A DNA stretch of 64,000 nt from Paraglaciecola sp. MB-3u-78 (GTDB taxonomy: Bacteria > Pseudomonadota > Gammaproteobacteria > Enterobacterales > Alteromonadaceae), in NCBI RefSeq assembly GCF_002835935.1, contig NZ_PJCF01000005.1:372001-436000 (forward strand). Direction: 5' to 3'. Both the position numbers and the translations under genes were made by a program. The notes under the pieces were generated by a model. That model was not told where the DNA came from. It worked only from the letters and a program-made list of their open reading frames with translations, and did not search any database. Positions 17,353 through 50,814 of this stretch are shown one piece after another (positions within the stretch are counted from its first letter, which is position 1; the number at the start of each line of letters is the position of its first letter).

Positions 17353-18564
17353 ATGGGTAGGTTAAGAAATACAATTTTGATCTGCGCAAGTGTAAGCACT
17401 TTTATAGGTGTTTCAGCACAGGCTCAAGAAAAAGCAAGTATGCCTGTTGGCACATTTGAGTTGACACCGACATTAAATGTGTCGCTTTCTAAAGACAGTA
17501 ACGTGACGCGTGTAAGCGACAACAAGGTTGACAGCTGGGTAACAGTTTTAAATCCAAAGCTTGAATTAGGTAAGCAAATTGGTAATAACAGTCTTGGCTT
17601 TGGAGTCAGTGCTACTAAAGGTATTTATAATTCAAGCGACACCGACAACTATGACGATTATCGCATATTTACCAATGGTGAAGTAGAGTTTGATCGCCGT
17701 AACCGTCTTTCAGGTTCAATTGTTCATTTATCAGGCCATGACGCCAGAGGAACATCTTACACTCTCGGTGCTGGTGAATTGTTGGATGGCCCAGACAAAT
17801 TCACTACCAATACATTGGACGCAACATACTCATATGGCGCCTTAACAGCAAATGCTAATATCGATGTAGATATGCGATTAATAGACATCGACTATGACAA
17901 TGATGTGGTTGTCTCAAATCCGAATAGACTGAGAGACCGAAAGGAGAACTCCTTAGGTTCAACTTTTTATTACAGCATTTCACCCATAACCGATTTATTG
18001 CTAGAAGGTAATTATTTAATTACTGACTATTCAGGCAACATTGAAAACATCGCGTCACTAGATAGTAAAACAAAATCATTACTGGCCGGTGCTAGATGGG
18101 AGACAACCGCTGTTACATCCGGGTTTGCAAAGATAGGTTATCAAAAACGCGACTTCGACGTGGCAAGTCGTGCTGGTTTCTCCGGGCTAAAGTGGGATTT
18201 GGGGGTTGCTTGGAGTCCAATTGAACGCGCCATATTCGACTTTTCAACCGCAAGTGACACACGAGAAACCAATGGTCAGGGCAATTATATTCGCCGAAAA
18301 GATTATGTAGCCAATTGGCGACATGAGTGGCTTGATCGTTTTAACACAGTCGCTAGCTTTAGTTATTCAGATGATAGCTATGAAGGTGATACGGTTCCCA
18401 GGAACGATAAAATCAAAGAATTCAAAGTTGCGGCTGATTACCGATTTAGACGTTGGTTAACCCTGGTTACAGCAGTCAGTTACTTCGATAGAAATAGTGA
18501 TAGCACAACTGTTTTCGATTACAATCGAAGCTTGGTGAGTTTTACTGTAAAAATTTCGTTATAA
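17353..18564 (+). CDS. Outer-membrane beta-barrel protein of EPS locus
   Basis: The 403-residue protein has a cleavable signal peptide (about residues 1-25, ending VSAQAQ). The rest is rich in alternating polar/hydrophobic strands and ends SLVSFTVKISL, with a terminal hydrophobic pattern typical of outer-membrane barrels. Proteins of this kind open many EPS operons in Alteromonadales and resemble the EpsL/putative barrel family linked to EPS and PEP-CTERM loci. It is followed after 16 bases by the exporter gene. A role in passage through or anchoring at the outer membrane is inferred. Confidence 0.75.
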   Translation: MGRLRNTILICASVSTFIGVSAQAQEKASMPVGTFELTPTLNVSLSKDSNVTRVSDNKVDSWVTVLNPKLELGKQIGNNSLGFGVSATKGIYNSSDTDNYDDYRIFTNGEVEFDRRNRLSGSIVHLSGHDARGTSYTLGAGELLDGPDKFTTNTLDATYSYGALTANANIDVDMRLIDIDYDNDVVVSNPNRLRDRKENSLGSTFYYSISPITDLLLEGNYLITDYSGNIENIASLDSKTKSLLAGARWETTAVTSGFAKIGYQKRDFDVASRAGFSGLKWDLGVAWSPIERAIFDFSTASDTRETNGQGNYIRRKDYVANWRHEWLDRFNTVASFSYSDDSYEGDTVPRNDKIKEFKVAADYRFRRWLTLVTAVSYFDRNSDSTTVFDYNRSLVSFTVKISL

Positions 18565-18580
18565 AAAGGTGTTGAATTAA

Positions 18581-19114
18581 GTGAAATTGAAAATTTGGAG
18601 TCTAATGCTTTGCTGTGTATTCAGCTCAGCTATTTTTTCGCAAACAATTAGTTTAAGTCAATATCGTTTGGGCTTAGGTGACGTAATTAAAATCTCTGTT
18701 TTTGGTCAAATCGATTTATCTCTTACAACAAGAGTACCGGCCATGGGAGTGATAAATTATCCGTTTTTGGGTGATATTCAAGTTGTTGGCATAACAGCTT
18801 CTGAGCTTGAATCTAATATTTATAAAGGCTTAAAAGGCGATTATTTAGTTGAACCGTCTATTTCAGTCACAATAGAAGAATATCGTCCCTTCTTTATTGA
18901 TGGTGAAGTTAAAAAATCTGGGGGCTATCCTTATCAGCCAGGTTTATCAGTGGACAAGGCTGCTGCGCTCGCTGGAGGTTATACAGAAAGAGCCTCGCGC
19001 ACTAAAATTATGATCAGACGTGATATCTCAGGTGTGCAAAAGCTGATTGAAGCTCTGCCAACCGATACCGTTTTACCCGGTGACATCATCACAATCAAAC
19101 AAAGCTTCTTTTAG
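18581..19114 (+). CDS. Polysaccharide export protein (short Wza-like)
   Basis: The 177-residue periplasmic/outer-membrane protein has a signal peptide (about 1-20, ending AIFSQ). A poly-export domain follows, from YRLGLGDVIKISVFGQIDLS to FLGDIQVVGITASELE. Then come one SLBB-like segment, FIDGEVKKSGGYPYQPGLSV, and AAALAGGYTERASR. It is shorter than Wza of E. coli (about 380 residues) and lacks the C-terminal helix that crosses the outer membrane. The neighbouring barrel protein may therefore supply the pore, as in the VpsM-like and PelB-like systems. The start is a GTG. Confidence 0.9.
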   Translation: MKLKIWSLMLCCVFSSAIFSQTISLSQYRLGLGDVIKISVFGQIDLSLTTRVPAMGVINYPFLGDIQVVGITASELESNIYKGLKGDYLVEPSISVTIEEYRPFFIDGEVKKSGGYPYQPGLSVDKAAALAGGYTERASRTKIMIRRDISGVQKLIEALPTDTVLPGDIITIKQSFF

Positions 19115-19132
19115 GCAGGGATGTAACATTTA

Positions 19133-21379
19133 GTGAATACTCAAAACAATGTTGGACAAATAGAAGCTAAGTTGCTTGAAAATGAAACCATCGATATAGG
19201 TCAGTACTGGAATATCGTCATGCAGTTCAAATGGCGAATCATCAGTTTGTCGGTTTTTATAACGATCCTTGTAGCTTTAATCGTTATGTCAATTACCCCA
19301 AGGTATATCGCCACAGCAAAACTATTAATTGAATCAAATGAAGCGAAAGTGTTATCGATTCAAGAAGTTTATGGTCTTGATGCAAGTCGTAAAGAGTATT
19401 TTCAAACCCAATACGAAATTCTACGATCTCGTAAAGTAGCTGAAAATGTGGTTAAAAAATTAAATCTTGTTGAACAGCCGAGCTTTAATTCTGAATTGGC
19501 TGATGTCAGTCCATTAGATAAGTTGAAAGCAAGTATAAGAGACCAACTTACGAGTCGTTTGCCCTTTTTACCTCAAAAAACTCCGGTAGTTTATACCCCC
19601 GAACAGTTGCAGGTATCTAAGCAAAATTATGCGGTGGCAAAAGTAGCGAAAAATTTAGTAATTTCACCTATTACGAATACCCAGATTGTTAACATCTCTT
19701 TCGAAAATGAAGACCCAGAGTTAGCAGCACTAATTGCAAATACTGTTGGTGATGTATACATCGAAAGCTATCTGCAAGCGCGCTTTGATATGACCGAGAA
19801 AGCTACGACCTGGTTAAATGAAAGTATAGATGGTCTGCGTGTTAAATTAACGACTTCTGAAAAGCAACTGTCTGATTTTTACGAAGCTGAGCAATTAGTT
19901 AATATCGACGGTGTAGTAGGTTTAGCAAAAGATGAATTACAAAAGCTGAGTCAGCAATTATTAGAGGCGCAAGCTAGTCTTAAACAAAATGAATTTATTT
20001 ATAAACAAGTTGTAGAAAGCGGTGCCAATCTTGCTGAACTTTCTGCGCTAAACGAAGTGATCAATCATCCTTCGGTAGTATCTGTTAAACGAGCAGAAGT
20101 ATCGTCTCAAAGCCGTACGTTTGAATTAAGTAAAGTTTACGGCCCAAAACACCCTAAAATGATTGCCGCTTTGGCAGAATTAGAGTCTATACAGGCCAGT
20201 TTAGCAAACCAGATAAAAGTGTTGATTTCGGGCATAACGGTAGACTTTAGCAATGCCGGTGAAAATGTTGCGGTTTTAAAAAATGACGTTGAACAGGCAA
20301 AACAACGTTTCCGTGAATTAACTATCCTAGATAATCGTAGCAAAACCCTGCAGCGAGAAGTGCTTATCAATCAACAGTTGTATAGTTCGTTTTTTACGCG
20401 TTTAAAAGAGACAAACGAGTTAGGTGGTTTTGAATCGGCTAACGCAAGGTTAATGGATGTTGCTAAAAAACCAGGCAATCCAGCCAAACCTGAAAAGGGT
20501 TTGATTATTGCTGCTGCTTTCATTCTCAGTATTGGCTTAGGGGTGTTTTTGGCCATTGCCATGGATGCGTTAAATAGCGGCATTCGTTCTTTAGATGATG
20601 TTGAACGTAAATTATCACAACGCATGTTAGGTCTTATTCCGTGGGAAGCTCATAAGAAAAAACAGAACATTCCATTACGTCACTTCTATGATTCTAAACA
20701 TCACACTTTTAGTGAATCAGTGCGAACCTTAAGAACAAGTTTACAGTTATTGAATATTGATAAACCATCAAAAACTATTTTAGTCGCATCCAGTGTACCC
20801 AAAGAGGGTAAAACTATCGTTACTATTAATTTAGGTTTTGCTTTAGGCCAATTACATAAAGTACTGATTGTTGATACTGACTTACGCAGACCAACCTTGG
20901 GCAAACTATTTGACTTACCTGGTTTTCAACCTGGTATAGCCAACTTGATTGCAGGAACTCACAAGTTAGATGAATGTATAGTGCATGATGAATATTCTGG
21001 CGTTGATCTTATCTGCGCAGGCACGGTACCAAATAACCCTCAAGAGCTATTGGCTTCAGAACAGTTTAAGAAAATCATGAAGGGTTTTACCACAATGTAT
21101 GATTACATTATTGTGGATAGTGCACCTATTCAAGCCGTCAGCGATGCCGTTGTGGTATCTAATGTCTGTGATTCTATTATTTATGTAGTGAAGTCTGATA
21201 GTACAAGCCATAAAATGATAAAAAGTGGTTTAAGCCGCTTCATCAGCTTAGGCCACAGAGTCGACGGTATTATTTTGAATCAAGTTGATTTGAAAAAAGC
21301 GAAAAAGCAGGGTGAATATGCCGGCTTTTATGACCAATATGGTTACAACAACTACCAAAGTGACACTAAAAAAGCTTGA
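19133..21379 (+). CDS. Wzc-like polysaccharide co-polymerase and tyrosine kinase
   Basis: This 748-residue inner-membrane protein controls chain length and export. It has a Wzz domain (about 15-110, first membrane helix near 35-57), a long periplasmic coiled-coil region, a GNVR-like segment and a second membrane helix near 460-480. The cytoplasmic BY-kinase domain follows: Walker A SSVPKEGKT with K560, Walker A' LIVDTDLRRP and Walker B YIIVDSAP. The tail GEYAGFYDQYGYNNYQSD is a tyrosine cluster for autophosphorylation. It overlaps the phosphatase gene by four bases, and that enzyme presumably reverses the modification. Confidence 0.95.
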   Translation: MNTQNNVGQIEAKLLENETIDIGQYWNIVMQFKWRIISLSVFITILVALIVMSITPRYIATAKLLIESNEAKVLSIQEVYGLDASRKEYFQTQYEILRSRKVAENVVKKLNLVEQPSFNSELADVSPLDKLKASIRDQLTSRLPFLPQKTPVVYTPEQLQVSKQNYAVAKVAKNLVISPITNTQIVNISFENEDPELAALIANTVGDVYIESYLQARFDMTEKATTWLNESIDGLRVKLTTSEKQLSDFYEAEQLVNIDGVVGLAKDELQKLSQQLLEAQASLKQNEFIYKQVVESGANLAELSALNEVINHPSVVSVKRAEVSSQSRTFELSKVYGPKHPKMIAALAELESIQASLANQIKVLISGITVDFSNAGENVAVLKNDVEQAKQRFRELTILDNRSKTLQREVLINQQLYSSFFTRLKETNELGGFESANARLMDVAKKPGNPAKPEKGLIIAAAFILSIGLGVFLAIAMDALNSGIRSLDDVERKLSQRMLGLIPWEAHKKKQNIPLRHFYDSKHHTFSESVRTLRTSLQLLNIDKPSKTILVASSVPKEGKTIVTINLGFALGQLHKVLIVDTDLRRPTLGKLFDLPGFQPGIANLIAGTHKLDECIVHDEYSGVDLICAGTVPNNPQELLASEQFKKIMKGFTTMYDYIIVDSAPIQAVSDAVVVSNVCDSIIYVVKSDSTSHKMIKSGLSRFISLGHRVDGIILNQVDLKKAKKQGEYAGFYDQYGYNNYQSDTKKA

Positions 21380-22104
21380 TAGACCTACACAATCATATAC
21401 TGCCAGGTATTGATGACGGCTCTAAATCCCTTGCAACATCCCTGCAAATGGCCGAGCAAGCTTTAGAGTGTGGTGTAACACATATAGTGTGTACACCACA
21501 TATACATCAGGGCTATTTTGATAATACTCAAGATAAAATAGTTGAAGCTACCAAAGCCTTCTCACAGCATTTAATCGCAGCAGGTTGCCAACTTAAAGTA
21601 GCCAGTGCTGCAGAGCTGCGGATCTGCCCTGAAATAATGTCGTGGTATAGCAACAATACGCTGCCATATATTGGAATGTGGCAAAGTAAGCATGTGATTT
21701 TACTTGAGCTGCCTCATAGCCATGTACCTGCAGGCACCGATAACCTTATTCGCTGGTTGTTAAATAATAATGTACAACCGCTAATAGCTCACCCTGAGCG
21801 CAATAGGGATATATTGGCCGACTATCGTAAATTTGAAATGTTAAAGCGTTGCGGCTGTATATTTCAATTAACGGCAGGTTCAGTCATTGGCCGTTTTTCA
21901 GCGCCAATTAAAACATTATCTCTGAAAATGTTGAGTGAAAAATCAATTTGTGTCATCGCCTCAGATTCACATGGCTTGGAACGAAGGCCCAATGATATGG
22001 GGCAGTGCCGTGAGTTTTTGCAAAATGAAATCGATGACCAATATGTAACAACGTTAGTTGAGACAAATCCAACAAAAATAACCCAAACCTTAAGCTGGAT
22101 GTAA
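21376..22104 (+). CDS. CpsB/YwqE-type tyrosine-protein phosphatase (PHP domain)
   Basis: The 242-residue manganese-dependent phosphatase removes phosphate from BY-kinase tyrosine tails. Metal ligands are in MIDLHNHILPGIDDGS at the N-terminus, THIVCTPHIHQG, the middle PLIAHPERN and the late VIASDSHGLERRP, all typical of the PHP family. The start is TTG, overlapping the kinase stop (TTGA), so kinase and phosphatase are translationally coupled. The pairing supports cyclic phosphorylation control of EPS polymerisation. Confidence 0.94.
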   Translation: MIDLHNHILPGIDDGSKSLATSLQMAEQALECGVTHIVCTPHIHQGYFDNTQDKIVEATKAFSQHLIAAGCQLKVASAAELRICPEIMSWYSNNTLPYIGMWQSKHVILLELPHSHVPAGTDNLIRWLLNNNVQPLIAHPERNRDILADYRKFEMLKRCGCIFQLTAGSVIGRFSAPIKTLSLKMLSEKSICVIASDSHGLERRPNDMGQCREFLQNEIDDQYVTTLVETNPTKITQTLSWM

Positions 22105-22105
22105 C

Positions 22106-22792
22106 TTGAGTCGCTATCATTACTTACTAGCCTTATTGCTTGTCATTATTTGTGTGTGTGGAATTTCCACAGCCTATGATTATGGTGTTGCTAGCGTCAA
22201 TTATTACAACGTCAAAAACACAGTTGCAAAGTGGCATCTCGATCCGCAAAATAATGACCTAGCGGCATATAAAAGGGCTAAAAATAACAGTCTTGTTGCT
22301 ATTCAATATCACCCAGATAACGCCCTTTATTTAGATCTTAAAGCTCAGGTAGACGAGTGGGGCGTCATATTCGAGTTTGAGAACAGCACAGCAGGATTAA
22401 ACTCAGCAAAGACATACTATTTGCAAGCTACTCAGTTGCGTCCTTTATGGCCCGTTACATGGGCTTCTTTAGCAAAACTTAAATGGCGTTTGCAAGAATT
22501 TGACGATGAGATGCTGTATTTCCTAGAAAGAGCCAATACACTTGGCCCTAAAAAAGCAGAGGTTAACATACTCATTGCTGATCTAGGTCTAGCTCTTTAT
22601 GTAAATAATCATCCAATGTTACTCAAAATAAGGTCTATGTTTTATCAGCGATTAGCGCAAGGCGTTATTAATCCTTATAGTCGTAAACCAGTTAAACAAG
22701 TCATTAAAAGTTATGACGCAGAACGATTAGTTTGCCGGTGGTTGCGAAATGAGCCGAATGCTACAAAGTGGTTAGTATCAAAATGTGAATAA
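22106..22792 (+). CDS. VpsP-like EPS accessory protein
   Basis: The 228-residue protein has one N-terminal membrane helix (YLLALLLVIICVCGISTAY). The rest is a periplasmic helical domain with a TPR-like pattern (YYLQATQLRPLWPVTWASLAKLKW). Its size, topology and place after the kinase/phosphatase match VpsP of the Vibrio cholerae vps-II cluster as I remember it. No function is known for that protein. The TTG start lies one base after the previous stop. It is the last gene of this operon. Confidence 0.6.
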   Translation: MSRYHYLLALLLVIICVCGISTAYDYGVASVNYYNVKNTVAKWHLDPQNNDLAAYKRAKNNSLVAIQYHPDNALYLDLKAQVDEWGVIFEFENSTAGLNSAKTYYLQATQLRPLWPVTWASLAKLKWRLQEFDDEMLYFLERANTLGPKKAEVNILIADLGLALYVNNHPMLLKIRSMFYQRLAQGVINPYSRKPVKQVIKSYDAERLVCRWLRNEPNATKWLVSKCE

Positions 22793-22819: not shown

Positions 22820-23227
22820 TTATAATTTTTTAAACCAATCCCAAATCCCCAGTGAAAAGTTGTCAAACAGATTAATGCCCAGTGCGGACTTAAGTAAATA
22901 TAAAGCCAGTAAACCGAAAGTTATTGAAACACAAAGAAAACCAACAAGAAAAACTGCGATAATTATTCTTGAAGCTTTTTGTTCTGCGCGACTTAATTCA
23001 CGATTATTTTTACCCGCGATAAATACGTAATAATAGCGGTATTTAAACCAAGGTATTGTGCCTCTTAAATCAACTGAGTGATTACGCCACTGACGATTAA
23101 TACTGGCGTTTCTGAGGTAGGATAATTGTTCTTCGGTAAAGGTTTCCTTTACTCGGTCTGGCACCTTAGCGAGTAAATTTTGTAACGCAGGATCCTCATA
23201 TACCGAAGCAGGGCGGTTAATGGCCAT
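22820..23227 (-). CDS. Conserved small membrane protein of EPS locus
   Basis: This is a 135-residue protein of unknown function. It starts MAINRPASVYEDPALQNLLA, which recurs in homologues I remember beside O-antigen ligases in Alteromonadales. The C-terminal third has one or two membrane helices (IIIAVFLVGFLCVSITFGLLALYLL). It overlaps the 3' end of the ligase gene by 11 bases on the same strand, so the two are co-translated and probably act together. Some databases give this family an implausible shikimate-pathway name, and nothing in the sequence supports that. Confidence 0.7.
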   Translation of the reverse strand: MAINRPASVYEDPALQNLLAKVPDRVKETFTEEQLSYLRNASINRQWRNHSVDLRGTIPWFKYRYYYVFIAGKNNRELSRAEQKASRIIIAVFLVGFLCVSITFGLLALYLLKSALGINLFDNFSLGIWDWFKKL

Positions 23228-24614
23228 TTTGTATCCTTGTACTAGTTCTCGAACGCGACTTTTTACTTACATTGGCTTTGCTAATTAGCGCCAGAGCTAG
23301 AAAAACAATAAAATAACTGGCGTTAGCTGGCGCTTGCAGTGGAAAGTCCACACTCATATGGATCAACATGCCAAGTATCGCCATTAAACTCGCAAATGCC
23401 GCACCTTTGTACATAGCATTTTTACGTTTTTTGATAACACTTAGTGCACTAGTAAAACAAAGTAGCACTATGGCAACTAAACATAAAAAACTGATAAAAC
23501 CGTATTCGATTAAGGTTTGCAGATAGTCGTTATGTGCTTGGTCATAAAACGGATATACATCGGCTTTTTTATAGGACGGGAAAACGCTATAAAAACTACC
23601 ACTACCGCTACCCATTAAAGGATAATCAGCAATAATAACCGAGGCATCTATAACCACTTCGTCTCTGCCTTCTTGACTCAAACTTGTTTCAACTAATCGT
23701 TCTTGCACTTTATCTAATCCAAACCAAGAACTCACTATTAATAAATCGATAATGATCATACTGATCACCAAGATACTTAATCCCTTTGAACGTTGTTTAT
23801 CTGCAAACAACGCATAAATCCCCACTATCGTTAAAGCTGCAAAAAAAGCAGTGTTACCCATCCTTGAACGTGACATAACCAGTGCGATAACCATGATGGC
23901 TAAACAAATTCTTACTAATGCTTTATTTCCTAGCAAACTTGAAATAATCACCCTAGACCAATCTCGGCCAGACATGGATTGGTTGTTATTTAAGCTTGCT
24001 ATAATCAAACCCGTACCAGCAGACAAGCAAAGCATAATGAAATTAGCAAAATGGTTTTTATACACAAAACTGCCAGTGGCCACTTCTGAAATGGGAAGGT
24101 TGAAAATCAAACTGAATTTTGTGTCTAGCAATATTTCTAAAATCCCATACAGGCCCTGCAACGACCCAACAATTAACATCAGGGTAAGTACTTTTTTTAC
24201 CCTTTGCTCATTATTAATTAATATTAAGCTACACAAAAATAAACAGAAGTAGGCAAAGCTTTTTAATAAACTAACCTTGCTTTGGCCAACGTCTGTACTG
24301 AGAAACATGCTCTGGACATCGCTGGAAAAATTGGCTTTTGGTGAAAGTATGTCAATTATAAACTCAGGCAATGGAATTACCTGCAAAGTGGCAAATATTA
24401 AAAACACCAGCCAAATTGAAATGACTGTTTTAAATTTCTTTAAACCTAAAAAAATTTCATCTTTTTTTAAGAATATACAGCCAAGCATCAATATGAAAAT
24501 TGAAATTTGTAAAAGACTCCAAGCCCAAGGTCTATTCGAACCTAAAGGTAATGGCGCCCAAAACAATGTCGCTAAGAGGAAAGTAAATAAGATGGAATGC
24601 AGTGAATATTTCAA
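23217..24614 (-). CDS. O-antigen ligase / polymerase family membrane protein
   Basis: The 465-residue protein has about 12 membrane segments and a large periplasmic loop holding the Wzy_C/WaaL hallmark GSGSGSFYSVFP and FYDQAHNDYLQTLIEYG. The conserved arginine/histidine loop binds undecaprenyl-linked sugars in this superfamily. Polymerase (Wzy) and ligase (WaaL) functions cannot be told apart by eye. A second family member lies at 29771. It overlaps the small membrane protein gene downstream and follows the repeat protein gene by 90 bases. Confidence 0.9.
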   Translation of the reverse strand: MKYSLHSILFTFLLATLFWAPLPLGSNRPWAWSLLQISIFILMLGCIFLKKDEIFLGLKKFKTVISIWLVFLIFATLQVIPLPEFIIDILSPKANFSSDVQSMFLSTDVGQSKVSLLKSFAYFCLFLCSLILINNEQRVKKVLTLMLIVGSLQGLYGILEILLDTKFSLIFNLPISEVATGSFVYKNHFANFIMLCLSAGTGLIIASLNNNQSMSGRDWSRVIISSLLGNKALVRICLAIMVIALVMSRSRMGNTAFFAALTIVGIYALFADKQRSKGLSILVISMIIIDLLIVSSWFGLDKVQERLVETSLSQEGRDEVVIDASVIIADYPLMGSGSGSFYSVFPSYKKADVYPFYDQAHNDYLQTLIEYGFISFLCLVAIVLLCFTSALSVIKKRKNAMYKGAAFASLMAILGMLIHMSVDFPLQAPANASYFIVFLALALISKANVSKKSRSRTSTRIQNGH

Positions 24615-24704: not shown

Positions 24705-25769
24705 CTAGTTAGTCGACGCGGTGAGATCACCACCACCAGTTCCGCCTGCACCAATACCAACACCAACAGGAGCAGCCAATGCTAGCGCCACTGGACCACC
24801 GGCAGCTGTTGCTTCTCCAACTGTTGTAGGATCTGCTCCAGCACTTAGTGCTGCTAGCAACGCTTGCTCTGAATCTATCTCGCCACTCATTACGGCGGCA
24901 TTGATGACTACTTGTGCAAAATCTGGATAAAGTACAACACCCGCATTAATGATGTTGAGAACATCCTCTGGCTTATTTTCTATCGATAATTTAGTGGCTG
25001 GAAATAAATCATTAGCCGCTACCATATTAGCCATTAACGCTAAAACAGTCGGCTTATTATTTCTGGTAGATTTTAGAGCTGCTGAGGATAGTAAATTAGC
25101 ACCTTCATTGGTGATTGCATTATCAATTACTTTCAAGATAGATGCTTTAACGGGGTTACCCTGAAGAACCAAGTCATTGATGGCCTGATGGACTCTTGTA
25201 CCTGGTTGATCTTTATTGCCGTAAAGAGAAACTGACACTATTGCGTTATCAATAACATTCAAGGTAGACGTGTTTACAGGAGTATCCTGAAGAACCAAAT
25301 CATTAATGGTCTTTTGAGCACTTGTAACTGGCTGCTCTTGATTATCGGATAGAGGTACTACATCACTTGTAGACGGAGCGACTGCCGCTTGCGCTTGATT
25401 ATCGGATAGAGACACTACACCACTAGTAGACGGAACAACTGCTGCTTGCGCTTGATTATCGGATAGAGTCACGATACCACTGGTAGACGGAACAACTGCT
25501 GCTTGCGCTTGATTATCGGATAGAGACACTACACCACTTGTAGACGGAACGACTGCTGCTTGCGCTTGATTATCGGATTGAGACACGATACCACTAGTAG
25601 ACGGAACGACTGCTGCTTGTTCTTGATTATCGGATTGAGACACGATACCACTTGTAGACGGAACAACTGCTGCTTGCTCTGTAACATCTTCTTGCATTAA
25701 ACCAATCGTTAATAAACCGACTACTACTATACCAACAGTTAATAAACCGCCTACTACTAAAAGCTTCAT
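24705..25769 (-). CDS. Membrane-anchored tandem-repeat protein with TAAG site
   Basis: The 354-residue protein begins with one hydrophobic segment (about 1-25), a signal anchor. Residues 31-144 are six copies of a 19-residue unit like QAAVVPSTSGIVSQSDNQ. Residues 155-177 and 197-219 are two copies of another unit (INDLVLQ-PV-S-L-VIDNAI). The C-terminal region is helical and ends in an Ala/Gly-rich tail with TAAG at 321-324. No known domain is recognised. It lies directly downstream of lapG and lapD on the same strand. LapG proteases cut adhesins at (T/P)AAG, so a substrate relation is possible. A structural EPS-matrix protein is the alternative. Confidence 0.65.
   Translation of the reverse strand: MKLLVVGGLLTVGIVVVGLLTIGLMQEDVTEQAAVVPSTSGIVSQSDNQEQAAVVPSTSGIVSQSDNQAQAAVVPSTSGVVSLSDNQAQAAVVPSTSGIVTLSDNQAQAAVVPSTSGVVSLSDNQAQAAVAPSTSDVVPLSDNQEQPVTSAQKTINDLVLQDTPVNTSTLNVIDNAIVSVSLYGNKDQPGTRVHQAINDLVLQGNPVKASILKVIDNAITNEGANLLSSAALKSTRNNKPTVLALMANMVAANDLFPATKLSIENKPEDVLNIINAGVVLYPDFAQVVINAAVMSGEIDSEQALLAALSAGADPTTVGEATAAGGPVALALAAPVGVGIGAGGTGGGDLTASTN
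25338..25679 (-). repeat. Six tandem 57-bp coding repeats
   Basis: Six in-frame copies of a 57-bp unit encode the 19-residue repeats of the anchored protein. Copies 1 and 2 are nearly identical at the protein level, while copy 6 is the most diverged. Such arrays easily gain or lose units by slippage, so length variation between strains is likely. Confidence 0.9.
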
Positions 25770-25909: not shown

Positions 25910-27841
25910 TCAACATTCTAAGGCTATTGGGGCTCCCACAAAAAATCCCTGTACAAAGTCAACTTGCATATCTTTAAGTGTTTGAGCTTCTTGCGCTGTT
26001 TCCACTTGCACAGCAATGACTTTTATATTGAGTCCATGGGCAATATCCACTAAAGAATGGACAAAAAGTTGATTGTCTTTTTCGGTGTGAATATTTTTGG
26101 TAAACCGTCCATCTAGTTTTAAGTAGTCAGGTTTTATAGCTCGTAAATGGGTCACCGAAGCAATTTGTGCACCAAATCGCTCGATTGTTATTTTTACCCC
26201 TAAGTTTTGCACGTTGACGATAAAGCTTAAAAAGTTGTTGGTATCACTAAAAAGACAACGCTCGGGAATTTCTAGCACCAAATGAGAGCACTGTGCACCT
26301 AATTGGGTAAGTTGAGTGACAAACCAATGCTGAAAAGAAGGTTTGAGTAATGACAATCGTGAAATATTTAAACCTACTGTGCCACTTTGACTTGAAAGTT
26401 TTGTGAACGCACAGCGTACTAATAACTCATCTAGTTTTTGAGAAAAATCGAGCCGAATGGTTGCCGGGATTAACTCCGCCATTGGGATATGTTGTTTGCT
26501 ATCTGGTTCAGGAAAACGAGCAAACCATTCCTGATAAATCTCATCCCCTGAAAATGACTTAATGGGTTGGGCTATAAAATCCGCTGTATCTTTATCTAAC
26601 AACGCTTTTATCTTTTCGCGCCAAGTATCGTTACTTTGAACGGTTTGAAGTTTGTCTACAGCCTGCCATTTTAAAGGGTTAAAATTTGCTTGAGTGAGCG
26701 CACTATCAACTTGTTCCAAAATGGCTTTTTTACGGTCGCCATAATTAAAACTACCCGCAGCAATCTGAGCAGTACCCGATTCATATTCTGACTTCTCAAT
26801 AGCGTTACATTTATCGATAAGCTGTTGGCACAAATCTAAGCAAGTCACCTCGTCAATACCTTCAATAATTAACGCAAAATCGCCACCGTTTAAACGGTAA
26901 AGCGTAAAGTCTATATCCTGCTTATTTAAGTGCTCACTTAATAAATCACTCACCGTTTTAATGTAAGCATCGCCTTCTAAAAACCCAATATTACAGTTCA
27001 CTTGATTTAAACTACTTAATCGTACAAACATCAAAAAGCTACTGGTTTGGTGCTCAGCATCACTTAAAATCTGCTCAAAGGCTAAGTCAAAAGCGCGTCT
27101 ATTACCCACTTTGGTTAATTCATCAGAATAAGCAAAGTCGCGGTAGCGTTCAGCTTGATTGGTTAATCTACCAAATAAGTCACTAAGGCGTTCTGACATT
27201 AGATTAATCGCATCCACAATAATCCTAAGCTCTAAGGTTTTTGGTTTTAACTCTACTCGGTCAAACTTTTGCTGACTAATGGCCTCAGACTGTTTTACCA
27301 AAGCCATAATGGGTATGGTTATCATGCGAACTAAAAACCACACAAGCACCAATCCAACCAAAAACATTAACAATATCAGCTGAAATGAATCGGAGGCATT
27401 ATCCCATAACTGCCCATAACCAATCCCTGGATCACTCTGTACCGACAACTGTCCGGCGATAGTCCACCCATCGTTTAATTCTGTTACGCGAACCGGGGGA
27501 GAAAGAGGGAACATATTAATAAACCAACTAGGCACCTGTTCCAGCGAAACAGGGTTGCGCCTTTCTAAAATCACTTTGCCATCTGCATCTTTTAACACAA
27601 TCGCACTGTAGTAGCCTCGGTCAAAAATGGCGTTTACCATGGTTTCAATCAAAGGCATATCTTTATCACCAATATAGGATGTAATCGACATACCTAGTGA
27701 AGTGGCCGTATCTTGCGCATGAGATGAGAGTTGCTGTTCGATAAAGTTTTTTGTATTGCTAACACTTATCCATACTGCACCAATAAAAAGTGCCAAAAAT
27801 ATAGAAAATAAGCTGAGAACAAGTTGTCTCGACAAGGGCAT
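25910..27841 (-). CDS. lapD: LapD-like c-di-GMP receptor (degenerate GGDEF-EAL)
   Basis: The 643-residue inner-membrane protein has a LapD/MoxY-type periplasmic domain between two membrane helices (about 8-28 and 152-172), a HAMP linker, a GGDEF-like domain and an EAL-like domain. Both catalytic motifs are degenerate. The GGDEF site reads NGGDF, the EAL site reads FIAQPIK, and the later DDFG motif reads ERFG. That is the LapD pattern, a receptor that binds c-di-GMP in the EAL domain and holds LapG in the periplasm. One base separates it from lapG, so the pair is co-expressed. Confidence 0.9.
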   Translation of the reverse strand: MPLSRQLVLSLFSIFLALFIGAVWISVSNTKNFIEQQLSSHAQDTATSLGMSITSYIGDKDMPLIETMVNAIFDRGYYSAIVLKDADGKVILERRNPVSLEQVPSWFINMFPLSPPVRVTELNDGWTIAGQLSVQSDPGIGYGQLWDNASDSFQLILLMFLVGLVLVWFLVRMITIPIMALVKQSEAISQQKFDRVELKPKTLELRIIVDAINLMSERLSDLFGRLTNQAERYRDFAYSDELTKVGNRRAFDLAFEQILSDAEHQTSSFLMFVRLSSLNQVNCNIGFLEGDAYIKTVSDLLSEHLNKQDIDFTLYRLNGGDFALIIEGIDEVTCLDLCQQLIDKCNAIEKSEYESGTAQIAAGSFNYGDRKKAILEQVDSALTQANFNPLKWQAVDKLQTVQSNDTWREKIKALLDKDTADFIAQPIKSFSGDEIYQEWFARFPEPDSKQHIPMAELIPATIRLDFSQKLDELLVRCAFTKLSSQSGTVGLNISRLSLLKPSFQHWFVTQLTQLGAQCSHLVLEIPERCLFSDTNNFLSFIVNVQNLGVKITIERFGAQIASVTHLRAIKPDYLKLDGRFTKNIHTEKDNQLFVHSLVDIAHGLNIKVIAVQVETAQEAQTLKDMQVDFVQGFFVGAPIALEC

Positions 27842-27842
27842 A

Positions 27843-28508
27843 TTATTTATCCTCTTTATTGTTTGATTCTTGCATCATACGTTTGTTTAAATCTTCCCAC
27901 AGTTCATTATTGCCGCCCTCTTGAACTTGTTTGCCTCGGCCTTGCTCTTTGGCCATCCATAAACCATCACCGTTAAAGCTATATACGGGGCGAAGATCCC
28001 GGCGTTTATTCGCGGATAAAATATCTTTATTGAGATTATCGAGTACCAAAGGAATAGATTTAGGCGTTTCGTAATAAGCCAGTACCATATGCGCCATATT
28101 GTAATTTAAGGCCTTTACGTACATGAGTCGCAGCTTTTCTGTTGGTACGCCCAACGCCCGTAAACTGAAGTATTTGGCAATACTAAAGTCTTCACAGTCG
28201 CCACCATTTGTGGATAAAAATTCAACCGGCGTTGCCCAATAATCATTTTTGTTCCAATGCTTTAAATCATCCACAAACTCTAAACGATTAAAAAAGCGGT
28301 TTACCTCATAAAGCTGGTCAGCAGTGCTTGAATTTTTGTTATCAGCAATCACTTCTTGCCAATCTCTCACTCGCTTTGATGCTTCAACGCCAAAGCGCAC
28401 TTGCACTTTTTGAAATAGCGCCTCGTTTAACTGAAACGTAGCCTGAGCACTTAGATGAAAAACAATCCAACATAAAAAAAGTACACGAGCAACTAAGTCA
28501 ATTCGCAT
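27843..28508 (-). CDS. lapG: LapG-like periplasmic cysteine protease
   Basis: The 221-residue protein is a bacterial transglutaminase-like cysteine proteinase (BTLCP, DUF920). It has a signal peptide (about 1-23) and the triad C105 (NGGDCEDF), H140 (NMAHMVLAYY) and D157 (PLVLDNLN). LapG releases large LapA-type adhesins from the cell surface when c-di-GMP is low, by cutting after a di-alanine site. No giant adhesin gene lies in this window; the only nearby candidate substrate is the repeat protein downstream. It is the first gene of a minus-strand operon. Confidence 0.92.
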   Translation of the reverse strand: MRIDLVARVLFLCWIVFHLSAQATFQLNEALFQKVQVRFGVEASKRVRDWQEVIADNKNSSTADQLYEVNRFFNRLEFVDDLKHWNKNDYWATPVEFLSTNGGDCEDFSIAKYFSLRALGVPTEKLRLMYVKALNYNMAHMVLAYYETPKSIPLVLDNLNKDILSANKRRDLRPVYSFNGDGLWMAKEQGRGKQVQEGGNNELWEDLNKRMMQESNNKEDK

Positions 28509-29770: not shown

Positions 29771-31024
29771 ATGAAAATTAGTTCTGTTCACAAGTTTATT
29801 TTATTTTTAAGTGTTGCTTACTATGTAGGTTTTGTTAGCTTTTTTGAGCGCCTTGCCAAAGGCGGAGGTAAAGGTGGTGGTTTTGAGAGTGCAGCAGCTG
29901 GCAATATTATTAATCAGCTTGTAGGTATTCTTTTATTGGGTTTATGTTTATTTATTTTATACCGGCAGTTAAATAATTATATAAAACAACATTTTTTAGA
30001 GAACTGGCCATGGTTTATTTTATTGGGCATATTAGCTTGTTCGGTTTTATGGTCATATTCACCGTCAATTTCATTTCGACGATTAATTGCATTTATGACC
30101 TTAGTTGTTGTTGCCTACTATCTAGCAATAACTTATTCACCAAAATCGTTATTTAACTTTCTGGCAAATGCAATTCTATTAGCGATTTTTGTAGGCCTAG
30201 TCTATGAGGTTGCAACCGGTAAATCATTAGCTATTGGACTTGGTGATAGGAGTAGCGCTTTTAGAGGAATAATACCGGATAAGAACGCCGCTGCCCGAAT
30301 TTATGCTTATGGTTTAATTGTATTCGTTGCTATTAGCGATAAATTCACAAAATTTCATTACATAAAGATAATTGTTTTTTTACTTGCACTTTCATTATCA
30401 CAATCGGCTTCTGCGATTATAATGGCAATAATGGGTATTGCTATTATTACACTTATTCGTATATCCCGAGGAAGTGGTAAGCAGCAAAGTTTTAATCGAC
30501 TAGCAATGCTCATTATTTTATCAGTAATTGGGATAGGTTTGCTTAGTGTTATTTATGAGTATTTGCTGGGCTTAATGGGACGAGATGCAAGTTTAACTGA
30601 TCGGACTGTTATTTGGCAGTTACTTGAGCAGTCGTTAGAAGATGAGTATTGGTATGGCTTTGGATTTGGCGCCTTTTGGGCTAGTGATGCTTCGAGCGGA
30701 TTTTTGGAAGGCTGGAAATTTATAGGAAATGCGCATAGTGGTTATATAGAAACCAGACTAAATGCTGGTATGTTAGGCCTATCAGCTTTGTTTTTGTTGC
30801 TGATTTCGTTTTTTCATAAAAGCTTACAACTGTTTTTTAATACAAATACCTCGAAAATATCAGCCTTGTTTATTTCTATATTAGTTGTGCAAACGATAAC
30901 GAATTATGTTGGTTACGTTATATTAAACCACAATTCATTCGATATGTTTTTATTCACAGTTTGCTACTTCAGTGCAACCTCTTTAACGACGCAATTAAGA
31001 ATGAACGAGATGAGAAATATATGA
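29771..31024 (+). CDS. O-antigen ligase/Wzy-type membrane protein
   Basis: The 417-residue protein has about ten to eleven membrane segments and a periplasmic loop with GFGFGAFWASDAS and NAHSGYIETRLNAGMLG, the superfamily motif around a conserved histidine. With the homologue at 23217 the locus has two such proteins, probably one polymerase and one ligase or modifying transferase. Its end overlaps the following GT2 gene by four bases (ATGA). Confidence 0.87.
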   Translation: MKISSVHKFILFLSVAYYVGFVSFFERLAKGGGKGGGFESAAAGNIINQLVGILLLGLCLFILYRQLNNYIKQHFLENWPWFILLGILACSVLWSYSPSISFRRLIAFMTLVVVAYYLAITYSPKSLFNFLANAILLAIFVGLVYEVATGKSLAIGLGDRSSAFRGIIPDKNAAARIYAYGLIVFVAISDKFTKFHYIKIIVFLLALSLSQSASAIIMAIMGIAIITLIRISRGSGKQQSFNRLAMLIILSVIGIGLLSVIYEYLLGLMGRDASLTDRTVIWQLLEQSLEDEYWYGFGFGAFWASDASSGFLEGWKFIGNAHSGYIETRLNAGMLGLSALFLLLISFFHKSLQLFFNTNTSKISALFISILVVQTITNYVGYVILNHNSFDMFLFTVCYFSATSLTTQLRMNEMRNI

Positions 31025-37123: not shown

Positions 37124-37915
37124 ATGGAACCTAACTGGAAATATAAACGTCCTATCAACGTAATACTTTCGAGAATCAAAGCCTTTCCTTTCTTGTTGAG
37201 GGCTATTGTATGGATGATTTGGTTACTTAGGTTTGTTTTTAGACGTTTTCGTAACCCATCACCAGACAATGCAACCGGAGTTATGGTTAATGATGAATTA
37301 AAGTTGCTTTACATAGCCAACCCAAAAGTTGCATCTAGTACTATCAAGAGCTTATTTCTTAATTCCATACCGAATAGTGAATTTCTGCTAACCACTTCTT
37401 ATACACAATTTGCTAAACAATATTCAGATAAATATGGTTATTGTAAATTTTCTTTTGTTCGCGATCCTGTTGAAAGACTTTATAGCTGTTGGCAAGATAA
37501 AATTAGCAATAACAAACGATTTGCAGATATATTTATTATCACTCGCTTTAAGGGGCTATATCCCGATATGCCTTTTGAATCTTTTGTGAAGTGGCTGTGC
37601 TCTGATAATGGTAAAGATGAATGTGCAGATAGGCACTGGAAATCTCAATCTAAACTTTTAAGCTCAGGAAATCCCACTTTTGATGATGCCAAATTTTATA
37701 ACTTAAATAAATTAAGCGAGATTGTTACCGATTATGCTCAAACAAATAATTTATCCATCACTCAAAACTTGTGGAGGAATAGACTAGGGGGTGACAGCAA
37801 AGGAATTGAGGCAATATCGAAAGATACGCTTCAACTTATTTTTCTACGGTACGAAAAGGACTATGAAGCTTTTGGCCCCTTGTTTAAGACTTCTCGATCG
37901 GTTTTAGGTGGGTAA
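37124..37915 (+). CDS. Carbohydrate sulfotransferase (Sulfotransferase_2 type)
   Basis: The 263-residue enzyme transfers sulfate from PAPS to a sugar. The 5'-phosphosulfate loop is YIANPKVASSTIKSLFLN (about residue 63-80), and the 3'-phosphate site is FSFVRDPVERLYSCWQDKI (about 107-125). The N-terminus has a hydrophobic stretch (FLLRAIVWMIWLLRFVF) that may anchor it to the membrane. It is one of five sulfotransferase genes or remnants in this locus. Its last 55 bases overlap the convergent acetyltransferase-like gene. Confidence 0.9.
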   Translation: MEPNWKYKRPINVILSRIKAFPFLLRAIVWMIWLLRFVFRRFRNPSPDNATGVMVNDELKLLYIANPKVASSTIKSLFLNSIPNSEFLLTTSYTQFAKQYSDKYGYCKFSFVRDPVERLYSCWQDKISNNKRFADIFIITRFKGLYPDMPFESFVKWLCSDNGKDECADRHWKSQSKLLSSGNPTFDDAKFYNLNKLSEIVTDYAQTNNLSITQNLWRNRLGGDSKGIEAISKDTLQLIFLRYEKDYEAFGPLFKTSRSVLGG

Positions 37916-43052: not shown

Positions 43053-44597
43053 GTAACTACTCAGCGGGTATAAAGATATTAGGCAGCATGCCATTTAATA
43101 ATAACGTTAATGCCGTGGACCCACTGATCCCTTGTTTTTTGCAGCTCGACAGATAGCTACGTAATCCAAAAAACATTTTGGCTCCGTTAGCACTTCTAAA
43201 ACATCCCGATATCTTTTGTTGAACCTTTGCCATCCTCAAATCATTTTCGCCCTGATTATTAGTGAATGGCACTGCCTCATCCGTCATGAATCTAAGTACA
43301 TCGCTTTCATAGTTTTGTAATCGCTCAAGTAGGTTACGTGATTGAGTTCTTTTAGGCCGTCCTCGCTTACCTTTCACTGGTATCGGCGCAGGACTTTCTT
43401 TTTCTCCTGCCTTTAAAATCGCTTGATAGTGACGTCGCAAGGTGTCTTGTCTTTCAACACTGAGTAACCCGCCAGCCTTATCTACCTCTTGATTGAGCTT
43501 AACTAAAAACACCCGTATTTCCTCAGCCCAAGCTTGATTATCTTGCTCATACGCTCGAGTTAATTCTCGCAGGTGATGCGCATTGCATAATGAATGTAGG
43601 CACTCATAACGATAATAAGGTTTCCAATGGTCATGGCACATCACACCGTTGAACTGGGGTAATATGTCAATCTCATCCATGGCATCATGGCCTCGTTTTT
43701 CATGGGCTGATAAATACGTCCAATCCAGAGACGAAGCGTTATGTAGCCATTGTCTTTTTCCGTTGATATTGATGCCAGTTTCATCGGTATGTAATGTCTT
43801 TTCTTTTCTCAAGTTCGCTTTGATAATATCTAATGCTTGCGTCTCTTCCAGTTTGGTAAAAGCGGTATTGATAAAGTTGAAAAGACTGCCGCTGCTCAAA
43901 GGTATATTAAGCTGGTCAGTGAAATACTCACGAATGCGCTCATAAGGCAGTAATTGATATTGGGACAGGTAAACCGCATGAGCTTTTAACCCAATACCAT
44001 ATTGAATACGGCTATTAACGTCTTGGGGAAATGGGGCAACGAAGCGTTGACCTAACTCATTCTCAAGTATTTGTGCGCGATATTCAGTGACGACACGCTT
44101 AAACTCAATATCGACCACTTGCCGCACCTCTTCACCCATATCAGTATAGTTACCGGGCGGTAAAAGTGTGCTATCAACGATTAATTTATGTGTGATGTCA
44201 GGGTTGTCATCAAGTGGTAGCGTTGTGCCTTTATGCCCCTTTTGTCCACCTGATTTTTTAGTACTGTTGCCTTTTGAATTTTTCTTTCTATTTTGATCGG
44301 ACGAGGGCGGTATACTGCTGTTATTACTGTTAAGCCCAAGCCGTTGACAGAGTAACGTGACAATAAGAAGCAATAAATCCATAGCAGTACGCATTGAAGG
44401 TGACAATGTATTGTCCGCTTCAATTTGTGCTTTAATGTTATTGATATTCGACTCAATATCAATGCCGCTTACTTTCATTTAGCCACGTAATTATCGAAAT
44501 AAAACAGTATGATAACGCTTAGAAATGATCAAGCAAGTCGATCATTTTTTAATTTTTGATCGTTAAAAATAAACTAGATTATGTGCTGAGTAGTTAC
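43053..44597 (-). mobile_element. IS66-family element (transposase-only type) with intact ends
   Basis: The element is 1545 bp with a perfect 13-bp terminal inverted repeat, GTAACTACTCAGC (43053-43065) against GCTGAGTAGTTAC (44585-44597). It is flanked by a perfect 8-bp direct repeat ATTTATTT (43045-43052 and 44598-44605), the size expected for IS66 elements. Only the large transposase is present; tnpA and tnpB accessory genes are absent, as in the ISBst12-like subgroup. It inserted at the very end of the flippase gene and preserved its stop codon. Confidence 0.93.
43057..44478 (-). CDS. IS66-family transposase
   Basis: The 473-residue DDE transposase has the N-terminal linker SNNSSIPPSSDQNRKKNS and the zinc-finger-like region after it. 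The catalytic domain has LHTDETGININGKRQWLH, GVMCHDHWKPYYRYECLHSLCNAHHLREL and the final GENDLRMAKVQQKISGCFRS. It is full length and unbroken. Its stop codon lies inside the left inverted repeat of the element. Confidence 0.95.
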   Translation of the reverse strand: MKVSGIDIESNINNIKAQIEADNTLSPSMRTAMDLLLLIVTLLCQRLGLNSNNSSIPPSSDQNRKKNSKGNSTKKSGGQKGHKGTTLPLDDNPDITHKLIVDSTLLPPGNYTDMGEEVRQVVDIEFKRVVTEYRAQILENELGQRFVAPFPQDVNSRIQYGIGLKAHAVYLSQYQLLPYERIREYFTDQLNIPLSSGSLFNFINTAFTKLEETQALDIIKANLRKEKTLHTDETGININGKRQWLHNASSLDWTYLSAHEKRGHDAMDEIDILPQFNGVMCHDHWKPYYRYECLHSLCNAHHLRELTRAYEQDNQAWAEEIRVFLVKLNQEVDKAGGLLSVERQDTLRRHYQAILKAGEKESPAPIPVKGKRGRPKRTQSRNLLERLQNYESDVLRFMTDEAVPFTNNQGENDLRMAKVQQKISGCFRSANGAKMFFGLRSYLSSCKKQGISGSTALTLLLNGMLPNIFIPAE

Positions 44598-49601: not shown

Positions 49602-50814
49602 CAGGGCAATCGCATTAAAATATTTGTAGCAGTTTCAGCAAGTAATCATTATCCCAACCTGCCATTTGCCGCTTAATCTTAATACCTACCTTATTATCAT
49701 TATCTGACGTTAATAAATTCAAAGATATGTGGCGTAATATTGCCATGTTTTGATCTGCATATCCTTGACGAATTCGACAATGATCTTCGTCAAATGCCAT
49801 ATCTAATCTCCAGTGAAGATTATTCTCTACACCCCAATGAGCACGTACATAGTGAGCAAATTTCTCTGCATCGTTATGCTTAACGCTACTAATAAAGTAT
49901 CGCGTTTCTTCTGACCATTCGTTCGCAAGAAATCTTCTTGATTTGACGCTAACAATACTGGCAAGGTGTGGGTGAGTATGATGCTCAGTAAGCCAGTCAA
50001 TTCGGTTGCAGGAAGTCACTGTTCTTTCTTCAATACGGCCATGCCCTGAATCAATACTCTTATAAGTATTTAACGTGCCCTCATAACTTTTAGGGGTATT
50101 TTCAAAGAATAAAATCACATCATCATGTAGGGTGCTTTGATTTCCTTTCAGTGCGGTTAAATAATCAGCGCCTTTACTCACGATCAGTTCAGCCGATTTC
50201 TTTTGTGTGTTTAATGCATCGGTTGTGATGATACTGCCTGTGATGTCTAAGTTTTTGAGTAGGGAAGGTAAGGCGGTTATTTCATTCGATTTTTCATCAA
50301 CTTTCACTTGTCCAAGTGCCAGCTGATTATCATGTGACCATGCGCTAACCATATAAATAGCTGATTTATTAGATGACTTATCATGAGTGCGTCGAAGGCA
50401 TTTACCGTCAATAGCGATCACATCGCCCGTGACATTTTTTACTATCTCTTTGATCCAGCTAGAAAAACAGGTTTGAAATTGCTCAGGATCAATTAAGGAA
50501 AAAATACGTCCCAAAGTATCATGAGACGGAATACCATTTTCTAGGGATAAATATTGTTCAAACCAAGTGCGTTTAATGTTGGCAAATTTTTCAATGGCAA
50601 CCCAGCCATCACAGCCACAGATAACGGCACATAGGGTAATAAAAAAGATGTCATCTAATTTATGTAATTGTTTTCTTAGAAGACGAGGATCTTCAATGTC
50701 TTTGAAATGTTCGATAAGTGTGGGCTTGTATTTGGTCATATTACGTCGCGTAAAGCGAAGTAATAGATCAAATTAGGGGATCTGTGTCAAGCCATTTTTA
50801 ATGCGATTGCCCTG
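49602..50814 (-). mobile_element. ISAs1-family element with intact ends and target duplication
   Basis: The 1213-bp element is bounded by perfect 19-bp inverted repeats (CAGGGCAATCGCATTAAAA at the left, its reverse complement at 50796-50814). It is flanked by a perfect 10-bp direct repeat GTGATTGCTT (49592-49601 and 50815-50824). The single transposase frame is intact. This is a recent insertion and may still be active. Confidence 0.95.
49615..50739 (-). CDS. ISAs1-family transposase
   Basis: The 374-residue DDE transposase starts MTKYKPTLIEHFKDIEDPR. It has the family blocks FFITLCAVICGCDGWVAIEKF, ENGIPSHDTLGRIFSLIDP, VIAIDGKCLRRTHDKSS, SIITTDALNTQKKSAELIV and the late HYVRAHWGVENNLHWRLDMAFDEDHCRIR. 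It is full length and unbroken, and lies inside perfect terminal repeats. Confidence 0.96.
   Translation of the reverse strand: MTKYKPTLIEHFKDIEDPRLLRKQLHKLDDIFFITLCAVICGCDGWVAIEKFANIKRTWFEQYLSLENGIPSHDTLGRIFSLIDPEQFQTCFSSWIKEIVKNVTGDVIAIDGKCLRRTHDKSSNKSAIYMVSAWSHDNQLALGQVKVDEKSNEITALPSLLKNLDITGSIITTDALNTQKKSAELIVSKGADYLTALKGNQSTLHDDVILFFENTPKSYEGTLNTYKSIDSGHGRIEERTVTSCNRIDWLTEHHTHPHLASIVSVKSRRFLANEWSEETRYFISSVKHNDAEKFAHYVRAHWGVENNLHWRLDMAFDEDHCRIRQGYADQNMAILRHISLNLLTSDNDNKVGIKIKRQMAGWDNDYLLKLLQIF

Follow-up and report, generated by a model that had tools for sequence, protein, structure and literature searches.

A short protein with a LapG-type cleavage site in a conserved lapG-lapD-X-wzyC unit: a candidate non-adhesin substrate of LapG among polysaccharide genes

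The window, a stretch of 64,000 nucleotides from the genome of Paraglaciecola sp. MB-3u-78, contains on its minus strand lapG (27843..28508), lapD (25910..27841), a gene for a 354-residue protein that we call X (24705..25769) and wzyC (23217..24614). X, a candidate short LapG substrate, is directly downstream of lapD and lapG on the same strand. A small membrane protein, also encoded in some relatives, ends the unit (22820..23227, minus strand). On the plus strand, an exopolysaccharide export cluster (17353..22792) encodes a BBP2 barrel, a Poly_export/SLBB protein, VpsP and two proteins that we take to be Wzc and a CapC-like PHP protein from family features of their translations; a second Wzy_C-family protein, possibly a polymerase, is encoded at 29771..31024. 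The polymer may be sulfated, since a sulfotransferase-family gene (PF03567) lies among the glycosyltransferase genes at 37124-37915. IS66-type and DDE_Tnp_1 transposase genes are found within the polysaccharide region (43057-44478 and 49615-50739). In a promoter scan, promoter-like sites were fewer than in shuffled sequences.

The lapD gene encodes a c-di-GMP receptor with LapD_MoxY_N (E 4.5e-45), GGDEF and EAL domains; PF16448, PF00990 and PF00563 all scored over cut-off, and NF045673 was matched at E 1.2e-128 with 430 of 1020 bits, below its equivalog cut-off. The lapG product is a periplasmic cysteine protease (BTLCP, C93), matched by PF06035 over cut-off (E 3.2e-14) and by NF045674 below the equivalog cut-off (E 6.3e-70, 234.8 of 320 bits). 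Its triad (C105, H140, D157) was invariant in all 25 aligned LapGs, and a PDB sequence search matched it to solved C93 structures. The wzyC product, a Wzy_C-family membrane protein, matched PF04932 alone in Pfam, without PglL_A/PglL_B or any other PglL-specific match. A PDB sequence search with wzyC gave no informative match, and the best PDB fold match was the O-antigen ligase WaaL (7tpg, E 3.8e-6). The Wzy_C family also includes polymerases; judging from the fold match, wzyC may encode a ligase rather than a polymerase.

The N-terminal 25 residues of X (25695..25769, minus strand as for all X features) are strongly hydrophobic and, by a crude scan and inspection, show no clear cleavage site; they would be an uncleaved anchor or a signal peptide, and look anchor-like in this copy. 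Six 19-residue repeats containing Ser, Thr, Pro and Ala occupy residues 32-145 (25335..25676), starting at residues 32, 51, 70, 89, 108 and 127. Alignment and modelling point to a conserved helical core at residues ~186-299 (24873..25214). The core model (mean pLDDT 71, six sequences) is helical; it places a helix at residues 300-309 (24843..24872), followed by a DP turn at 313-314 (24828..24833), and the low-confidence tail begins at TAAG. This motif, at residues 321-324 (24798..24809), is the sole [T/P]AAG of X and the predicted LapG scissile site (A322/A323). The Gly-rich tail (residues 325-354, 24708..24797) ends GGTGGGDLTASTN, and its sequence occurs once in the window's genome. The published LapG site consists of a targeting helix, a DP motif and [T/A/P]AAG (PMC13090378), and X of the window has all three parts, the helix lying where the targeting helix would sit. 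The original prediction from the sequence had placed a protein with TAAG at residues 321-324 just after lapG and lapD, and both the position of the gene and that of the motif were borne out.

The same prediction described a membrane anchor and six repeats. The window copy has the repeats and an anchor-like N-terminus, but neither is a general feature of X: the 19-residue repeats were not seen in the aligned relatives, and most relatives have a cleavable-looking signal peptide. Anchored-looking N-termini were found in the window copy, L046, L051 and L052, and a lipobox in the X of L044; these calls are readings of the N-termini by eye. With cleavable-looking signal peptides in most relatives and no repeats in the aligned ones, the conserved design is not that of a substrate anchored in the membrane and freed by cutting. 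X seems soluble in most relatives; a membrane anchor is therefore no general means of retention, and the body of X is probably free in the periplasm.

X ranges from 146 to 372 residues among 48 complete gene models. As judged from the alignments, the stretch of helix, DP and TAAG and the Gly-rich C-terminal tail are conserved across X, and the helical core is conserved in nearer relatives. Among these nearer relatives the tail is the most conserved part of the protein and outranks TAAG, which argues that the function of X does not rest on cutting alone. Distant members keep little beyond A..AG.D....S.ATAAG and a Gly-rich tail with Ser/Thr-containing residues at its end. One X (L049:8975-10093) has a long, acidic Thr/Asp/Gly/Ser repeat insert between TAAG and the conserved C-terminus. 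A PDB fold search with the X core gave nothing at E 0.001 or better, and Pfam gave scattered weak matches only for the X cores and none for that of the window. An assignment of X to DUF4097, a Toastrack beta domain, was rejected, as the Pfam match covers residues 49-131, that is, the repeats only, and the core is modelled as helical. We also considered whether X is an N-terminal remnant of a giant adhesin that has been lost, and dropped this reading because the tail is kept to its last residues in nearer relatives and wzyC is directly next to it. In the same genome, about 3.5 kb to the right of the window's end, a 720-residue lipoprotein-like protein (L148:4012-6174) resembles the X core in its N-terminal part (E 8.7e-9); the place of TAAG reads TATS, and the X-like part is followed by a stretch that by eye looks like a beta-helix.

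Our analysis revealed that X is part of a conserved lapG-lapD-X-wzyC unit. Searching 196 genomes of the family for X yielded matches at E 0.01 in 43 of them, roughly half being weak. The order lapG-lapD-X-wzyC was found in 26 of the 27 neighbourhoods fetched for X. The exception, L052 in genome G118, keeps X (with AAAG) and wzyC, but different genes occupy the places of lapD and lapG, and the genome gave no PF06035 match. LapG was examined at 67 places, 27 with X (the window included) and 40 in the same genomes that were reached independently of the X search; the 40 are a choice from the listed LapG places that omits many beside retention-module ORFs. In 20 of these 40 loci wzyC is beside lapD, and all 20 have X between lapD and wzyC. 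The other 20 (18 with lapD; L104 and L108 without a lapD match) have no X-like protein after lapD, and a scan for D-x(2,14)-[TAP]AAG in all their ORFs of at least 60 residues gave two matches, both in ORFs longer than 800 residues. With the window, the total is 47 loci and 49 X proteins (two each in L035 and L044); L052 is left out of these counts as it has no lapGD, and the X of L093, missed by the ORF filter, was read by hand. The co-occurrence with lapDG that had been proposed as a check was found both in the loci fetched for X and in the lapD-wzyC loci reached through LapG.

A profile search with the X alignment in the genome contigs found no relative, and a class-wide search gave matches in 8 of 274 genomes. 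Among the class-wide loci inspected (the window's own, G327, G001, G424, G197, G405 and G458), only G327 had an X-like protein besides the window's own X. In G327, which belongs to another family (L147, L171), this protein carries SAAG, lies about 26 kb from lapG-lapD-wzyC and directly before the barrel gene of an export cluster; none lies between lapD and wzyC. Of 20 LapG loci from other families of the class, that of G327 alone had wzyC beside lapDG, by similarity to the window wzyC. Six of 80 named LapG loci had a wzyC match, five of them with X (L173, L175, L178, L179, L220); in the sixth, L227, the order is wzyC-lapG-lapD and X was not seen. The unit also occurs in Alteromonas lipotrueae (L178), in Agaribacterium haliotis of the Cellvibrionaceae (L220) and in a MAG with TASG at the site (L179).

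The original prediction had cautioned that TAAG can occur by chance in an Ala/Gly-rich tail. This caution holds for the bare motif, but not for the relatives taken together. Shuffling the last 40 residues of X gave TAAG in 7.9% of cases and [T/P]AAG in 10.6%, so that about one in ten to thirteen Ala/Gly-rich tails would have it by chance, and TAAG alone proves little. In contrast, 24 of 34 representatives (60% identity) had TAAG within the last 90 residues, whereas 2000 rounds of shuffling gave 1.7 on average and never more than 7; the 24 include L100, where TAAG is off the homologous place, and in L049 TAAG precedes the insert. The pattern D[PAV]-x(3,12)-[TAP]AAG occurred in 33 of 46 X proteins, counting L100. 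Among 899 other ORFs of at least 150 residues from the same loci, many of which are surely not genes, it had a single match, which proved to be the X of L093. The 34-representative and 46-X counts leave out the L093 X and the second L044 X.

A lack of conservation of TAAG in homologues had been named as a result that would refute the prediction; most homologues have the site. At the homologous place, [T/A/P]AAG is present in 35 of 49 X proteins, of which 34 have exact TAAG and one AAAG (L046), and the rest of X diverges strongly; this count is a reading of the sequences corrected for L100, L049, L044 and L096, the last two of which have a neighbouring AAAG. The site is lost in the other 14, though lapG is kept, and five of these still have the Ala-Ala pair. 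The variants are TAVG (L034), PARG (L037, L039), TAAA (L045), PSAG (L113), TAGG (L118), TASG (both copies of L044, the first with AAAG just after; L099; L100) and TAAP or TAAL (L055, L094, L095, L102). The PARG variants should escape cutting, if the di-arginine variant reported for DvhA (PMC13090378) is a guide. In genome G004 of the Paraglaciecola sample the site reads TAVG, an argument against TAAG being strictly required. Our main reservation about this interpretation is that 14 of 49 relatives have lost the site.

X shows some likeness to the retention module of LapA. Ten of 19 X cores matched the retention-module model NF033682 and no other NCBIfam model, with a best E of 1.1e-5 and below the cut-off where scores were shown; the window X reached 24.0 bits against a curated cut-off of 50, from profile position 88 or 89 to 120 of 145 only. 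Conversely, the X profile picked up a protein of another family in G424 that resembles a retention module (E 1.2e-4). In the LapG locus of Marinobacterium mangrovicola, a large ORF contains AIQAAILAGQDPTAVGEATAAG, compared with ALLAALSAGADPTTVGEATAAG in X. Retention-module ORFs of the same family show the same layout, for example AIQELIESGDDIELPD-TAAG in L070. Of 30 such ORFs inspected, 28 had xAAG at the place, with TSAG-like and TTAG-like sites in L085 and L086, so even accepted LapG-type adhesins vary somewhat at the site.

The window's genome has one LapG. The original prediction had noted that no LapA-like giant adhesin is in the window, where the largest closed ORF is 748 residues, and the proposed search of the genome for a LapA-type adhesin agreed: no match to NF033682 was above cut-off in the whole genome. 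Nor was a LapB-type transporter over cut-off (TIGR03375, best 308 of 693 bits), while each of the seven genomes whose retention module exceeded the cut-off in that search also had TIGR03375 over cut-off. By the curated criteria X is not a LapA-type retention-module adhesin, as it is 354 residues long, scores below the cut-off and comes from a genome with no LapB over cut-off.

The LapGs of the X/wzyC loci make up a separate clade. A tree was built from 166 LapG-like proteins, and 51 of its 54 wzyC-linked rows, among them the window LapG, fell in one set of 53 (SH-aLRT 98). Two further rows complete this set: L174, on a contig that stops shortly after lapD, and L212, whose lapGD is without X or wzyC in a locus of 14.6 kb. 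L171, L179 and L227, labelled as wzyC-linked, fall outside the set, which may reflect repeated origin or movement of the arrangement. The tree came from a quick search, has several long branches and contains identical row pairs from the same genomes (L038/L175, L045/L173). Eight genomes of the genus were compared. Three of them (G000, the window's own, G004 and G161) carry X with a single LapG and show no LapB or retention module over cut-off. Four (G054, G089, G117, G141) combine X with LapB, a retention module and a second LapG. The last, G180, has LapB, a retention module and one LapG, with no X match. Within this sample, the two Lap systems are therefore inherited separately.

The polysaccharide surroundings of the unit vary. 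Of the 26 loci fetched for X, 22 had at least two window-type export genes within the stretch retrieved, as did 4 of the 20 fetched for LapG. With these genes in 26 of 46 relatives' loci, the window's kind of export cluster is not a fixed companion. The fixed companion of the X loci is wzyC. Neighbours were scanned in two of the 20 loci without the window-type set. L098 has glycosyltransferases, a flippase-type protein, a nucleotidyl transferase, a second Wzy_C protein and an alginate-export-type barrel, and L056 has glycosyltransferases on one side and unrelated genes with an EAL response regulator on the other.

Taken together, these sequence comparisons argue that X, a short protein and no adhesin, is a substrate of the neighbouring LapG, with a probability of roughly 0.8. 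Of the short, anchored LapG substrate originally predicted, the small size and the LapG-type site stand, but the anchoring is not conserved. With somewhat less assurance, X is probably both a LapG substrate and a participant of some kind in the control of polysaccharide. Polymer control is the most likely purpose, given that the unit includes a Wzy_C enzyme and is surrounded by polysaccharide genes. That this purpose is the retention of exopolysaccharide is a tentative proposal.

In known systems, LapD sequesters LapG at high c-di-GMP. By analogy, LapD of the window would hold LapG at high c-di-GMP and X would stay whole; when c-di-GMP falls, LapG would cut X between A322 and A323 and part the folded body from the 30-residue tail. 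The body would stay in the periplasm as a stopper, and the Gly/Ser/Thr tail would be joined to, or would hold, the exopolysaccharide or its exporter, so that cutting would change the retention or release of the polymer. A folded body unable to leave, combined with a flexible polymer-engaging tail, would amount to a stopper layout as in LapA. In the most specific version, which we regard as doubtful, the Wzy_C enzyme would join the polymer to the Ser/Thr tail of X, the body of X would serve as a periplasmic retention module, and the LapG cut at TAAG would free the polymer. The idea that X may carry the polymer on its tail comes from the best fit of wzyC to the WaaL fold and from PglL enzymes, which often adjoin their targets and modify flexible, low-complexity ends (PMC3643930). 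Computation shows the gene order, the conservation and shape of the site, the separate LapG clade and the lack of a detectable LapA or LapB in this genome; we infer the cleavage of X, the c-di-GMP step, taken over from known LapD and LapG, and the whole polysaccharide role.

Other explanations share part of this evidence. X could act on the Wzy_C enzyme or the exporter as a regulator or an assembly partner, with the LapG cut switching polymerisation or export and not the release of finished polymer. This would fit the position of X, which lies between lapD and wzyC both in the window and in the 46 family lapG-lapD-wzyC loci examined (26 of them fetched for X), and the X-like protein of G327 directly before the barrel gene of an export cluster. 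However, no fold or domain match points to a regulator, and sequence cannot separate this explanation from the main one; we consider it rather unlikely. An improbable alternative is that X is a decoy or gauge that binds LapG, perhaps being slowly cut, and sets the amount of free protease, with the real substrate elsewhere. The tight linkage to lapDG would agree with this, and so would the fact that the residues preceding the site can persist where the scissile pair is poor (PARG, TAVG, TASG), as a binder would allow. However, the window's genome has a single LapG and no protein over the retention-module cut-off; the C-terminal tail, most conserved in nearer relatives, would be needless for a decoy, and the linkage to wzyC would be left unexplained.

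Finally, TAAG could be a by-product of an Ala/Gly-rich boundary in a protein of a polysaccharide cluster and never be cut by LapG. The chance of about 8-10% in a shuffled tail, the missing site in 14 of 49 relatives and the presence of X in G118 without any PF06035 match would all fit this reading. Against this, 24 of 34 representatives have the motif where shuffling gives a mean of 1.7, the site pattern is almost absent from the 899 other ORFs, the site is common to retention-module proteins and the LapGs form their own clade. We therefore judge an accidental TAAG to be very improbable, and favor X as a LapG substrate.

The LapG/LapD switch is known for cutting giant adhesins, and LapA itself is not known to have a signal peptide and has a beta-rich retention module. 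The X locus shares relatives of LapG and LapD with the LapA/LapG/LapD system and with the NF033682 adhesins. From N- to C-terminus, X and LapA have a similar order: a folded part, a targeting helix, DP, [T/A/P]AAG and a flexible stretch. In contrast to LapA, X ends about 30 residues after the site, has a signal peptide or anchor and a predicted helical core, and has no adhesin part. X also differs from the Lap system in that it adjoins wzyC among polysaccharide genes, in a genome with no LapB over cut-off.

Two further LapG-family systems are comparable. CdrA of Pseudomonas aeruginosa is released by LapG, and its proposed site (A2105/A2106), called speculative by the authors, is near the C-terminus (PMC4694147). 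X is likewise a non-LapA target candidate with a site near the C-terminus; CdrA is a large secreted adhesin, whereas X is small and polysaccharide-linked. HvyA of Caulobacter is a BTLCP protease in a capsule export locus, controls encapsulation and is confined by its abundance in the cell cycle (PMC4241560). Like HvyA, the window LapG is a LapG-family protease in a polysaccharide locus; the accessible text of that paper names no target of HvyA and describes no X.

For the enzyme next to X, PglL and PilO offer a parallel, as 21 of 31 PglL homologues are located at pilin genes, and PilO also lacks PglL_A/PglL_B (PMC3643930). In both cases a Wzy_C-family enzyme is beside a secreted protein with flexible, Ser/Thr-containing ends; in contrast to PglL, the window wzyC has no PglL-specific Pfam match, and its ligase role is putative.

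The LapG targets described so far, in the accessible parts of the literature, are large adhesins, and finding LapG targets where LapA is absent was called interesting (PMC4694147). No short LapG substrate was found in the open-licence PMC literature, preprints excluded, which is no proof of absence in print; the accessible text of PMC12844025 has nothing on LapG. A LapG clade with a short partner among the polysaccharide genes of marine bacteria is a concrete candidate for such a target, and suggests that the LapG/LapD switch acts on more than adhesins. If this is true, c-di-GMP-controlled periplasmic proteolysis extends from adhesins to polysaccharide, with the logic of the Lap system applied to a sugar polymer in place of an adhesin.
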